DNA of 64,000 nucleotides from Akkermansia muciniphila (GTDB taxonomy: Bacteria; Pseudomonadota; Gammaproteobacteria; Burkholderiales; Burkholderiaceae_C). Where the stretch lies: the NCBI GenBank assembly GCA_943331105.2, contig CALQKH020000001.1:186001-250000 (forward strand). The letters run 5' to 3'. Under the pieces are notes generated by a model. That model did not search any database. It saw only the letters and a program-made list of their open reading frames with translations, and had not been told where the DNA came from. The position numbers and the translations under genes were made by a program. Positions 2,693-5,880 of the stretch are shown piece by piece (position 1 is the stretch's first letter; each line of letters begins with the position of its first letter).

Positions 2693-4663
2693 TTAATGCA
2701 ACCCGACCACAGGCCTTGATTTGTAAAACTGCAAAGGACTTTCAGGCACGGCGTTCAGCACAGTTTTTTTGATCTTGCCGACCACATGCATTTCGCATGG
2801 TTTGCAGTCAAACCGGAGTGTGAGTTTTTCTTTGCCATTGATCAGTTGCATGGGCTCGGCCTTCACCGTGCCTTGCACGCCCGTCACGCCTTTGGCCTGT
2901 TTCGGACAAAGGCTGAGGCTAAATCGCACGCAGTGTTTGGTGATCATCAAGCTCACTTCGCCCAATTCTTCCTGGCTCTCGTAGGCCGCATCGATGACCT
3001 TGACGCCATGTTTGGCGTAAAAATCGCGGGCTTTTTGGTTGAAGACGTTGGCCAAATAGGTGAGGGTGTCTTCAGGGTAGGGCGCAGGCGGATCAATGGG
3101 CACAGCACGCGGCAGACGGTTCAGGCCCTCCGCGCGGGCGGCTTCTAAGGCTTGCACGGCCTCGCGACGCAGGGCGTTGAGCCGGGAAGGTGGCACAAAC
3201 CAGGCTCGGGGTAAGGCGAGCTGCACGTCCAGAGGCTCAAACAGGGTGTCGCCCAGCTTGCCTAAGGCGCTTTTGAGCTTGTCCGCGGCCTGGGCTGAAT
3301 CTTTGGGTGCTTGCCAAGTGATGGCCAAGTGCGCTGTGGCGCTGTGGCCGACCTCGTCGGTCAGAGTGAGTTGCAGTCCATTGTTGTTTTCTGCCAGCTG
3401 CATCCACACACCCATGCGGCGTTCCGCAGATTTTTTGTCCAGCGTGCGCACCCAACTCATGTCACGGTTGCGGTTGATCTGCACGCCTTGCCGCAGGTCC
3501 TTGAAGCCGTCCATAGGGTCTTTGGGAAACAACTTCCACACCCCTTTGGTTTTGGCAGCCTCGGCCCGGTTGATCTGCAAGCCCACCAGCTCTTTTTGAA
3601 GGTCGTAGTAGCAAAGGCCATCGCCGTTGTGCAGCTCGGTGGCTGGGTTGTCGGTGGTGATCTCGACGTGTTCAGCCGAGACCTTGCTGACCCAGCCAAT
3701 GGTCTGGCCTGGATTTTTGGGGGTGTCAAATGCGCCAATGTCTTCTTTGCGGCCTTGCACAAAATAATCGGTGAACTCGCGGTTGAAGTTCTGGTTCGGA
3801 TCAGGCTCAAAACTGAAGGTGGCGCGGCCGTGCGAGGATGCCGCCAGTTCGGGGCGCTCGTTGAGCACTTCATCGAACAGCTTGCGGTAGTGGGCCGTGA
3901 TGTTTTTCACATAGGCCATGTCTTTGTAGCGGCCTTCGATCTTGAAGCTGCGGACACCCGCATCCACAAGCTCGCGCAAGTTATCGCTTTGGTTGTTGTC
4001 TTTCATGCTCAGCACATGCTTGTCATGCGCCACGATGCGGCCTTGTGCATCCTTGACTTCATAGGGCAAGCGACAAGCCTGCGAACAATCGCCCCGATTG
4101 GCGCTGCGCCCTGTATGCGCATGGCTGATGAAGCACTGGCCACTGTAGGCCACGCACAAGGCGCCGTGCACAAAAAACTCGACCACAGTCCGGTCGGTGT
4201 CCACTGCATCGCGGATGGCGCTGATTTGAGGCAGCGTCAATTCTCGCGCCAAGACGATTTGAGAGAGGCCCGCGTCTTGTAAGAACTTGGCTTTTTCTGG
4301 CGTACGAATATCGGTCTGGGTGCTGGCGTGCAGCTGGATAGGCGGCAGGTCTATCTCCAACAGACCCATGTCTTGCACGATCAGTGCGTCAACGCCCACT
4401 TCGTACAGCTGCCAAGCCTGTTTTCTTGCTGCTTCCAATTCATCATCGCGCAAGATGGTGTTGAGTGTGACAAAAATGCGGCTGTGAAAGCGGTGGGCGT
4501 ATTGCACCAGTTTGGCAATGTCTTGCACCGAGTTGTCGGCGGTGGACCGAGCCCCAAACGAGGGGCCGCCAATGTAGACCGCATCGGCGCCATGGTTGAT
4601 GGCTTCGATGCCAATGTCGAAGGTGCGTGCGGGGGCGAGGAGTTCGAGGTGGTGAGGCTGCAT
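2693..4663 (-). CDS. rlhA: U32-family 23S rRNA C2501 hydroxylation protein RlhA
   Basis: 656 residues, matching the length of E. coli RlhA (YdcP), which with prephenate-derived metabolism forms 5-hydroxycytidine at C2501 of 23S rRNA. The shorter TrhP branch has about 450 residues. Family features include HGADAVYIGGP near the start, the U32 signature EFFVHGALC near residue 165, then SGQCFISH and NRGDCSQACRLPY. A C-terminal cysteine group (CVRFSLSLCP, FDCKPCEMH) fits the iron-sulfur ligands reported for this family. The N-terminus aligns with RlhA, supporting this ATG. It lies downstream of a prolyl isomerase gene but is separated from it by a terminator and a hairpin-rich gap, so it probably has its own promoter. 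The older label peptidase U32 is probably misleading. Confidence 0.88.
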   Translation of the reverse strand: MQPHHLELLAPARTFDIGIEAINHGADAVYIGGPSFGARSTADNSVQDIAKLVQYAHRFHSRIFVTLNTILRDDELEAARKQAWQLYEVGVDALIVQDMGLLEIDLPPIQLHASTQTDIRTPEKAKFLQDAGLSQIVLARELTLPQISAIRDAVDTDRTVVEFFVHGALCVAYSGQCFISHAHTGRSANRGDCSQACRLPYEVKDAQGRIVAHDKHVLSMKDNNQSDNLRELVDAGVRSFKIEGRYKDMAYVKNITAHYRKLFDEVLNERPELAASSHGRATFSFEPDPNQNFNREFTDYFVQGRKEDIGAFDTPKNPGQTIGWVSKVSAEHVEITTDNPATELHNGDGLCYYDLQKELVGLQINRAEAAKTKGVWKLFPKDPMDGFKDLRQGVQINRNRDMSWVRTLDKKSAERRMGVWMQLAENNNGLQLTLTDEVGHSATAHLAITWQAPKDSAQAADKLKSALGKLGDTLFEPLDVQLALPRAWFVPPSRLNALRREAVQALEAARAEGLNRLPRAVPIDPPAPYPEDTLTYLANVFNQKARDFYAKHGVKVIDAAYESQEELGEVSLMITKHCVRFSLSLCPKQAKGVTGVQGTVKAEPMQLINGKEKLTLRFDCKPCEMHVVGKIKKTVLNAVPESPLQFYKSRPVVGLH

Positions 4664-4665
4664 GG

Positions 4666-4682
4666 GCTGGGATTATCCCAGC
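4666..4682 (-). promoter_or_regulatory. 7-bp hairpin directly upstream of the rlhA start codon
   Basis: GCTGGGA (4666-4672) and TCCCAGC (4676-4682) are perfect inverted copies separated by three bases. On the minus strand the stem ends two bases before the ATG and occupies the place where a Shine-Dalgarno sequence would sit. It could limit ribosome access. No other clear ribosome binding site is visible. Confidence 0.5.
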
Positions 4683-4763
4683 TTGTGTCTTTTGTCCCTG
4701 GGGGCACCCTTCAGCTCCGGGGGAGCCATTGAGGTCTGGGGTAGCACTGAGACTCTGGGAGAT

Positions 4764-4845
4764 CCCTGAAGGGGCGGGCACTGGCCGGGGCTCAGAGGCG
4801 CTTCGCTTTGCCACATCGCCCCAGCCAGTGCCCGCCCCTTCAGGG
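4764..4845 (+). repeat. hairpin element A: 22-bp perfect stem with conserved 26-nt loop
   Basis: Left arm 4764-4785 is the exact reverse complement of right arm 4824-4845 (22 bp, GC-rich). After a C-A mismatch, GGGGC (4787-4791) pairs with GCCCC (4818-4822). The loop at 4792-4817 is 26 nt long and contains GCGCTTCGC. The same 26 bases occur in reverse complement at 4989-5014 as the loop of element B, although the stems of A and B are unrelated. There is no T-run after either arm, so a simple terminator role is unlikely. Confidence 0.9.
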
Positions 4846-4962
4846 CATGGGCGTTCGTGGTTTTGGTGCAGGTGTGATCTTCAGCGTTGCCATCAGGGTA
4901 GCCAAGACATGCCGGGGCTTAAAGTTCCTGCATTTTGGGCTTAGCTCTCCTGAGACGCCGAA

Positions 4963-5040
4963 CAAAAGGCATGGGCGCGGGATGGGGTGATGTGGCAAAG
5001 CGAAGCGCCTCTGAACCCCAGCCCGCGCCCATGCCTTTTG
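4963..5040 (-). repeat. hairpin element B: 19-bp perfect stem, same loop inverted
   Basis: Left arm 4963-4981 is the exact reverse complement of right arm 5022-5040 (19 bp). After a 2x2 internal loop, GGGGT (4984-4988) pairs with ACCCC (5015-5019). The loop at 4989-5014 is the reverse complement of the element A loop with no mismatch. The arm contains GGCATGGGCG (4968-4977), which also occurs just outside the right arm of A at 4844-4853. B lies 21 bases from the ppiC terminator. Confidence 0.9.
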
Positions 5041-5061
5041 ACCACAGAACCCCAGAAAACA

Positions 5062-5087
5062 AAAAACGCGACCGAAGTCGCGTTTTT
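5062..5087 (-). terminator. rho-independent terminator of the prolyl isomerase gene
   Basis: AAAAACGCGAC (5062-5072) and GTCGCGTTTTT (5077-5087) form an 11-bp stem closed by a CGAA tetraloop, with an A/T run at the base. It begins 19 bases past the ppiC stop in the direction of transcription. Confidence 0.85.
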
Positions 5088-5106
5088 AATGGACGCAAAG
5101 ACCAGA

Positions 5107-5880
5107 TCACTGGATCTTGGCTTTGGAGCGCAGACCTTCTTGGAAGCTGGCCAGTTTTTGCTGTTGCAGTTGCTGAGCGATCTGGGGTTTGACGTCGTTC
5201 AATTTGGGTAACTCGGCCTCACGCACATCGTCCACACGGATGATGTGAAAACCAAACTGGCTCTTGACCGGTGTGTCGGTCATCTGGCCCTTGGCCAGCT
5301 TCACCATTGCGTCCGAAAACTCTGCCACATAGCTGCCCGAAGCGGCCCAATCCAGATCACCTCCGTTGGCACCGGAACCGGGATCTTTGGACACCTTTTT
5401 GGCCAAATCTTCAAACTTGGCACCCTTTTTGATGTCGGCGATCAAAGCTTTGGCTTCGTCTTCTTTTTCGACCAAGATGTGGCGAGCGCGATACTCTTTA
5501 CCGCCGTTGGCAGCCACGAACTTGTCATATTCAGCTTTGATGTCGGCATCAGTGACAGGGTTTTTCTTCTGGAAGTCCGCAAAAAGCTGACGGATCAGGA
5601 TCGTCTGGCGGGCCAGCTCCAACTGGGCTTTGTAGTCGTCAGAGGCATCGAGGCCACGCTTACGAGCTTCTTGCATGAAGACTTCACGGGCGATGAGCTC
5701 TTCCTTGATTTGGGCCATGATTTCGGGTGTCACGGGTCGGCCAGAGGCTTCGACTTGCTGTTGCAAAGCTTTGATGCGGGAAGATGGAACAGGCTTGCCA
5801 TTGACCACAGCCAGGTTTTGCGCCAGTGCGGGTGCTGCCAACAGAGCCACCAAAGCGGCGCTGAACAAATGCTTTTTCAT
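5107..5880 (-). CDS. periplasmic parvulin-type peptidyl-prolyl isomerase
   Basis: 257 residues. A cleavable signal peptide (MKKHLFSAALVALLAAPALA, then Q) sends it to the periplasm. An N-terminal helical region (about 25-125) resembling the SurA/PrsA chaperone part precedes one parvulin (PpiC/rotamase) domain at about 130-225, with RARHILV, GGDLDWA and SQFGFHIIRVDD. This class isomerises Xaa-Pro bonds while folding exported proteins. It follows bolA at a gap of 84 bases and is closed by a strong terminator. Homologues in Burkholderiales commonly lie beside bolA and yciB, as here. Confidence 0.92.
   Translation of the reverse strand: MKKHLFSAALVALLAAPALAQNLAVVNGKPVPSSRIKALQQQVEASGRPVTPEIMAQIKEELIAREVFMQEARKRGLDASDDYKAQLELARQTILIRQLFADFQKKNPVTDADIKAEYDKFVAANGGKEYRARHILVEKEDEAKALIADIKKGAKFEDLAKKVSKDPGSGANGGDLDWAASGSYVAEFSDAMVKLAKGQMTDTPVKSQFGFHIIRVDDVREAELPKLNDVKPQIAQQLQQQKLASFQEGLRSKAKIQ

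Follow-up and report, generated by a model that had tools for sequence, protein, structure and literature searches.

The two long hairpins at positions 4764 to 5040 of the window (the whole stretch of 64,000 nucleotides that was analyzed), designated here elements A and B, are on balance best explained as members of a palindromic repeat family, akin to REP or RPE, that is dispersed in Comamonadaceae-type bacteria and to judge from its sequence would act as a strand-specific folded DNA hairpin. The properties of the family point to selection for a folded shape, and this shape is probably taken up as single-stranded DNA. The family represents a new type within the dispersed bacterial palindromes, one that is conserved in the loop, nearly free in the stem, and probably read as one folded DNA strand. 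Its fixed loop, nearly free yet covarying stem, set length, and strand polarity would amount to a natural experiment on the reading of folded DNA, and the copies would form a ready set of substrates for finding the protein involved. A and B are placed between the terminator of a ppiC-type gene and the start of a U32 peptidase family gene, in the following arrangement:

2693–4663, − strand: U32 peptidase family gene, called rlhA in the first-pass annotation (Pfam Peptidase_U32, DUF3656)
4764–4845, + strand: element A, long hairpin with the core on the + strand (inverted-repeat search; match to covariance model R2 of 82.7 bits at 4770–4839)
4764–4791, + strand: left arm of A, G-rich, 28 nt (inverted-repeat search)
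4792–4817, + strand: loop of A, 26 nt, with the same letters as the loop of B (sequence; core search)
4800–4806, − strand: apical GCGAAGC of A, a GNA-triloop mini-hairpin on the putative folding strand (sequence; GNA apex test)
4818–4845, + strand: right arm of A, C-rich, 28 nt (inverted-repeat search)
4963–5040, − strand: element B, long hairpin with the core on the − strand (inverted-repeat search; match to R2 of 78.7 bits at 4967–5036)
4963–4988, + strand: arm of B (the right arm in element orientation), 26 nt (inverted-repeat search)
4989–5014, − strand: loop of B, 26 nt, the loop of A inverted (sequence; core search)
5000–5006, + strand: apical GCGAAGC mini-hairpin of B on the putative folding strand (sequence; GNA apex test)
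5015–5040, + strand: arm of B (the left arm in element orientation), 26 nt (inverted-repeat search)
5062–5087, − strand: terminator-like hairpin with a T run, after ppiC and ahead of B in the direction of transcription, outside the element (terminator scan)
5107–5880, − strand: ppiC-type peptidyl-prolyl isomerase gene (Pfam Rotamase)

The folding strand would be the − strand in A and the + strand in B. Both hairpins were confirmed at the positions given by the first-pass annotation, with identical 26-nt loops at 4792–4817 and, inverted, at 4989–5014. The perfect stems of 22 and 19 bp described there hold for the outer parts; the full arms go further, with one mismatch before the inner paired bases, and are 96% complementary in both A (28 nt) and B (26 nt), with 26 nt between the arms in each case. 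The stems had also been called unrelated, and the arms do differ, yet they are not wholly free, since the left arm is G-rich in 37 of 42 arm families and some families resemble one another. A 23-nt core of the shared loop matched twice in the window and not once in 100 shuffles (up to three mismatches), and A and B were the only matches to the R2 model there. The RNA folding z-scores of the four strands of A and B ranged from −8.0 to −9.8. Neither element overlaps a gene called by codon-usage score; mechanical open reading frames do cross both. The outer arm of A had itself as the sole match in the genome at up to three mismatches, while that of B matched B, one place with two mismatches, and seven with three. 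An intrinsic terminator was rejected as an identity for either hairpin: the scan, with its loop limit of 8 bases, found none at A or B, and no terminator-type T run follows either stem. A simple scan of positions 4600–5200 gave no promoter-like site. TGGGATAAT, which adjoins the start codon of the U32 gene beyond the A/B pair, may be the promoter of that gene; the scan gave no sigma-70-type site.

We then determined how widely the core is distributed. Rather than being confined to this place, it turned out to be present in eight copies in the own genome (A and B included), all with zero or one mismatch in a search allowing up to three, and in 50 of the 90 genomes examined from the genus (Limnohabitans, by record names), or 35 of the 56 good ones. 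Since 40 of the 90 genomes are without it, the core is not essential to the group. A sample of 299 genomes from the family yielded it in 10, of which three belong to the same genus and several others look like chance. Among the matches listed (loci L059 to L138), the core-bearing taxa were Limnohabitans, Curvibacter, Rhodoferax, other Comamonadaceae, Burkholderiaceae, and Burkholderiales. A covariance model (R1) matched 23 of the 299 family genomes and revealed further loop subtypes, in other genera of the family too; common to most subtype loops are CTCA, an apical hairpin, and an AAATC end. The second model, R2, built from all loop subtypes, matched 34 of 40 genus genomes, 14 places in the own genome, and 7 of 300 genomes of the order (five within the family and two weaker ones outside it, with stricter filters that lose weak matches). 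In a genome assembled as one contig (G009), the copies occupy scattered chromosomal positions.

The core pattern had two matches in viral contigs; both are in an identical local sequence, lack paired arms, and look like chance. The subtype II and III patterns had no viral matches. By blastn, A gave only partial matches to plasmids and phages (E of 0.6 or more), and a subtype III hairpin only partial matches to plasmids (E of 0.2 or more). Rfam returned 48 matches with E up to 5 in positions 4600–5200, mostly to microRNA hairpin models, none over the gathering threshold. No description of such repeats was found in the open-licence literature, which is no proof of absence. The idea of an undescribed mobile or structured element is borne out insofar as the repeat is dispersed, is present or absent at one and the same site, and stays below the Rfam threshold.

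The site in question is the rlhA-ppiC gap itself. Here, 40 of 83 other genomes with a ppiC match were compared together with the window, and the U32 gene was recognized in 28 of the 41. Sorted by eye, these 28 gaps comprised nine with the B/A pair, one with B and a damaged A, four with a single hairpin having other arms, four deletion or fusion forms, seven short gaps without the core, and three with other repeats. Empty orthologous gaps, which it had been proposed to look for, are therefore found, the number of hairpins being two, one, or none depending on the species. In G005, whose ppiC is 96% identical, there is no hairpin, and 73 bases separate the terminator from the first codons of the next gene; in G084 (ppiC 98% identical), both hairpins are kept and the spacer is different. 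Read by eye, the empty gaps are too diverged to show a target-site duplication, and neither such a duplication nor a fresh insertion was noticed at the sites inspected. Terminator-like hairpins similar to that at 5062–5087 occur in most of the orthologous gaps. In one gap (L321, from G013), the left arm of B runs into that of A at a junction inside the cores (TTCAGA..CTGAG); the inner halves and the spacer are gone, and by eye the junction shows no clear microhomology. Three others (L328 from G015, L320 from G044, and L325 from G002) are occupied by short repeats of a quite different sort, which in G015 are arranged in tandem.

The inverted arrangement of A and B is common in the family. Of 48 neighboring copies within 400 bp, many of them representing one locus in several species, 43 were inverted (27 with the cores facing and 16 facing apart) and 5 had the same direction, with a spacing of 69 to 206 bp from start to start. 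The gene contexts of the copies were tandem, convergent, and divergent (gene calls being poor at the polA locus). Near polA (L011, L015, L048, L083, L114, and L174), a half-element is situated 69 to 70 bp past a full copy; it has the core and the right arm but no left arm to match. In L005, a full copy and a half-element seem to have fused across their cores, and the arms pair badly.

The arms of the copies are complementary elsewhere as well, as the first-pass annotation had proposed to check. In 189 distinct copies taken at up to three mismatches to the core, the own arms paired at a mean of 20.2 of 24 positions, compared with 11.2 of 24 between arms of different copies, orthologues included. 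At least 14 of 24 positions were paired in 171 of the 189; the 18 below this value include chance matches in other genera, hybrids (L030), and half-copies (L011). Subsequent counts were based on 170 copies, on the 157 of 166 unique copies that had at least 18 pairs (the set used to count mismatches), or on the 161 of 170 whose stem measured at least 20 bp. Among 52 diverse copies, on which R1 was built, each of 22 pairs was changed on both sides, the covariation score was 0.792 versus 0.162 for shuffled arms, and 90.5% of cells were paired, compared with 54.6% after shuffling and 35.8 to 48.0% when the arms were slid. These 52 were left after eight worse-paired ones had been removed by eye from 60 references; keeping all 60 lowers the share of paired cells to 88.2%. 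The count of standard pair types was no higher than in shuffles (55 versus 57.1). Within groups of orthologues, all 16 loci paired better than the mean of their shuffles; 7 of the 16 also surpassed the best of 300 shuffles, six small groups equaled it, and three fell short of it. The compensatory changes in the 52 copies and within orthologous groups uphold the earlier proposal that structure is constrained more than arm sequence.

The stems also have a set reach. Pairing is high up to bp 25, drops over bp 26 to 29, and is low from bp 30; the stem ends at 25 to 30 bp in 148 of 161 copies and at exactly 29 bp in 68 of them. In subtype I copies, mismatches cluster at bp 5 to 8 from the loop, with 58 of 157 copies having no Watson-Crick pair at bp 6, and this cluster is possibly a recognition irregularity. 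In the nine rlhA-ppiC gaps with both hairpins, which were picked for holding both and not by flank similarity, the mean pairwise identity was 85 to 95% for the four arms and 99 to 100% for the loops, compared with 42% from the terminator to B, 56% in the spacer, and 62% between A and the following gene (whose first codons are included). The hairpin thus evolves more slowly than its surroundings, with a border near the stem base. The same was seen in 263 copy pairs with similar arms and dissimilar flanks, a contrast partly made by choice, since the pairs were chosen for exactly these two properties.

The residual mismatches turned out to be strongly polarized. On the core strand of 157 copies, A·C or C·A mismatches numbered 205 and G·T or T·G only 31. 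An excess of A·C on the core strand corresponds to wobbles on its complement, so the complementary strand would be the folding one. Scarcity of G-U, considered as a sign of DNA, was dropped, since most mismatches are wobbles when the opposite strand is read. A further 39 hairpins, belonging to other subtypes and situated in loci already collected, were selected by requiring 17 or more pairs, a CTCA, and an end resembling AAATC, and their A·C to G·T ratio was 89:11; their pairing and motifs are not independent evidence because they were selection criteria, while the strand bias is independent. Among multicopy loci, the bias was 43:6 in the four with a ++ gene context and 34:3 in the three with a −− context, and between divergent genes it was 7:4 (LOC11), 3:1 (LOC14), 7:1 (LOC15), and 6:0 (LOC17). 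It was weak in convergent contexts (9:6 at LOC7 and 5:3 at LOC9), and it was missing from B's own group (LOC5, 3:2) and from LOC13 (1:2). Its presence in ++, −−, and several divergent contexts makes it a property of the element and not of neighboring transcription.

The apex of the loop shows the same polarity. On the folding strand, 33 of 41 distinct loops contained a GNA triloop with two or more closing pairs, and on the other strand none of the 41 did; shuffled loops gave a mean of 4.3 and a maximum of 10. Of the 33 triloops, 18 were GAA, 11 GCA, and 4 GTA. The apex stem is swapped in a few subtypes (GAACC/GGTTC, GAGCC/GGCTC, and GCCC/GGGC) with the GNA kept, and while 33 of 41 overstates independence because the loops are related by descent, these three exchanges are clear. 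Taken together, the wobble bias and the GNA apex favor, rather than prove, a folded single-stranded DNA.

Some copies lie inside a gene, as was seen for subtype III. Hairpins of this subtype are in frame within linker regions of a methyltransferase gene of the MmeI type (Pfam MmeI_Mtase and MmeI_TRD), and the versions of this gene in L187/L349 and in L206 each carry two of them in opposite directions. In L350, a homologue with 68% identity across the aligned region carries no hairpin in either linker. The in-frame hairpins speak for past mobility. Linkers of the MmeI-type gene (L349, L351, L356, L358, and L227) hold several kinds of in-frame palindrome, including CCCTCCCCC...GGGGGAGG types, and look like a hotspot for palindromic repeats.

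The same strand bias and compensatory arm changes could also be accounted for, although this seems unlikely to us, by a role of the transcribed folding strand as RNA, with the loop bound by a protein or a small RNA and G-U wobbles tolerated. The folds would be very stable as RNA, the bias is confined mostly to one strand, and tolerance of G·T and a GNA apex are compatible with RNA, in which G-U is accepted too. Against this, the bias is independent of gene direction, inverted neighbors would place one copy in each direction, as do the two copies within one gene, and A and B lie beyond the ppiC terminator and ahead of rlhA, where the simple scan of 4600–5200 was without a promoter-like site. 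It is less probable still that the hairpins are immobile sites of DNA architecture or barriers, at which a chromosome protein would bind a cruciform or hairpin. The conservation of arms at orthologous loci and the scatter of copies over the chromosome of G009 agree with such sites, but the presence or absence at one site and the copies inside a gene suit a repeat that moved, and a cruciform exposes both strands, whereas the constraint is on one only.

We also looked for a partner enzyme among the Y1 transposases, given that dispersal, inverted neighbors, and a strand-specific hairpin are what REP elements served by a Limnohabitans RAYT would display. The Y1 transposase family (PF01797) was indeed found in 85 of 90 genus genomes, including some without the core. 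Nevertheless, 30 Y1 loci of about 3 kb each, a part of all Y1 matches, had no convincing copy alongside (one R1 match with E of 0.39 and none to R2), both Y1 loci that were inspected have another palindrome nearby, and the stems are far longer than the 6 to 13 bp of GTAG REPs in the available part of PMC3733652, so that service by this RAYT is very improbable. The palindrome in question is AT-rich, TTAATTGGGGTC.GATCCCAATTAA, and is shared by the two loci (L246:1106-1163 and 1899-1923; L248:1106-1163 and 1892-1918); it is possibly the REP of that transposase. The other condition raised at the outset, that the sequence might prove to be a known REP or terminator family, was likewise not borne out by the terminator scan or the 30 RAYT-type loci.

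Least probable of all is a neutral by-product, in which template switching in quasi-palindromes perfects the arms without selection, as it is known to do for inverted repeats (in the available parts of PMC7202029 and PMC8604942), because the loop is near-invariant in differing stems, the stem reach is set, the mismatches are biased by strand, and the GNA apex is on one strand. Two related proposals of the first-pass annotation are likewise not supported. The insertion of a bare core into existing palindromes and the building of arms from flanking DNA are both opposed by the set stem reach of about 25 to 29 bp, by the outer A arm, which at up to three mismatches is found nowhere else in the genome, by the identity of 85 to 95% for the arms between nine species against 42 to 62% for the flanks, and by the strand bias of the mismatches, an outcome that would not be expected from plain template switching. 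The GGCATGGGCG of the B arm does recur beside A (4844–4853), as had been pointed out in favor of copying; it is not seen, for example, in the orthologous gap of G041 and thus gives copying no support.

In the reading that we prefer, a dispersed repeat acting as a folded DNA strand, the complement of the core would fold into a largely free stem of about 25 to 29 bp, an internal loop (CGATTT/TATGAG on the folding strand, GATGT/TCTGA in A and B), and, usually, an apical GNA-triloop mini-hairpin. A protein would recognize the unit as single-stranded DNA, reading the loop and needing the long stem. The unit, itself nonautonomous, would once have spread much like REP/BIME or Rickettsia palindromic elements; the copies would now be largely vertical in inheritance, with selection keeping the stems complementary. 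We tentatively suggest, with less confidence than for the folded strand as such, that a loop-reading enzyme other than the local RAYT might recognize one strand of a free-sequence stem of about 29 bp with a GNA cap, the stem serving as a length gauge, and might have dispersed such units, frequently as inverted neighbors, both within and between genes of Comamonadaceae-type bacteria.

REP-type palindromes are recognized largely through a conserved foot and stem. Rickettsia palindromic elements are palindromes that occur in frame within genes, and also between genes, a conserved sequence of the palindrome being what defines each family; the in-frame presence of subtype III is shared with them, but the arms differ between loci here. 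The likeness to REP/BIME and RAYT (TnpA-REP) lies in the dispersed palindromes, in the inverted pairs (43 of 48 neighbors within 400 bp), and in the putative recognition of one strand. Here, in contrast, the loop is conserved, the stem of about 25 to 29 bp is largely free, and neither a strong foot motif nor linkage to a RAYT was seen: the foot tetranucleotide (GTAG/CGTC) was not encountered, with flank information not exceeding 0.41 bits at any position (weighted over subtype I arm families), no companion RAYT gene was found at the 30 Y1 loci, and 148 of 161 stems are 25 to 30 bp long, not 6 to 13 bp as for GTAG REPs (available part of PMC3733652). According to the parts of PMC8266576 and PMC3733652 that bear on REP and RAYT, stem irregularities and loop contacts matter. 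Comparison with MITEs, whose terminal inverted repeats match those of an element with a transposase and which are bounded by target-site duplications, gave no parent element, and intrastrand-triplex repeats were set aside, no link to them being found in the available part of PMC4666352. The ends of IS200/IS605 and integron attC sites are also folded single-strand DNA substrates (available part of PMC8266576); in our case, the conserved part is the loop, and no transposase or cassette was noticed beside the copies inspected, non-systematically. Closest in the apex is the extraordinarily stable DNA mini-hairpin d(GCGAAGC), with its GNA loop, which in the available part of PMC4686876 is a short synthetic fragment that melts in isolation near 78°C. 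On the folding strand of the present family, an apical triloop of this GNA type with two or more closing pairs caps a long hairpin of genomic DNA.
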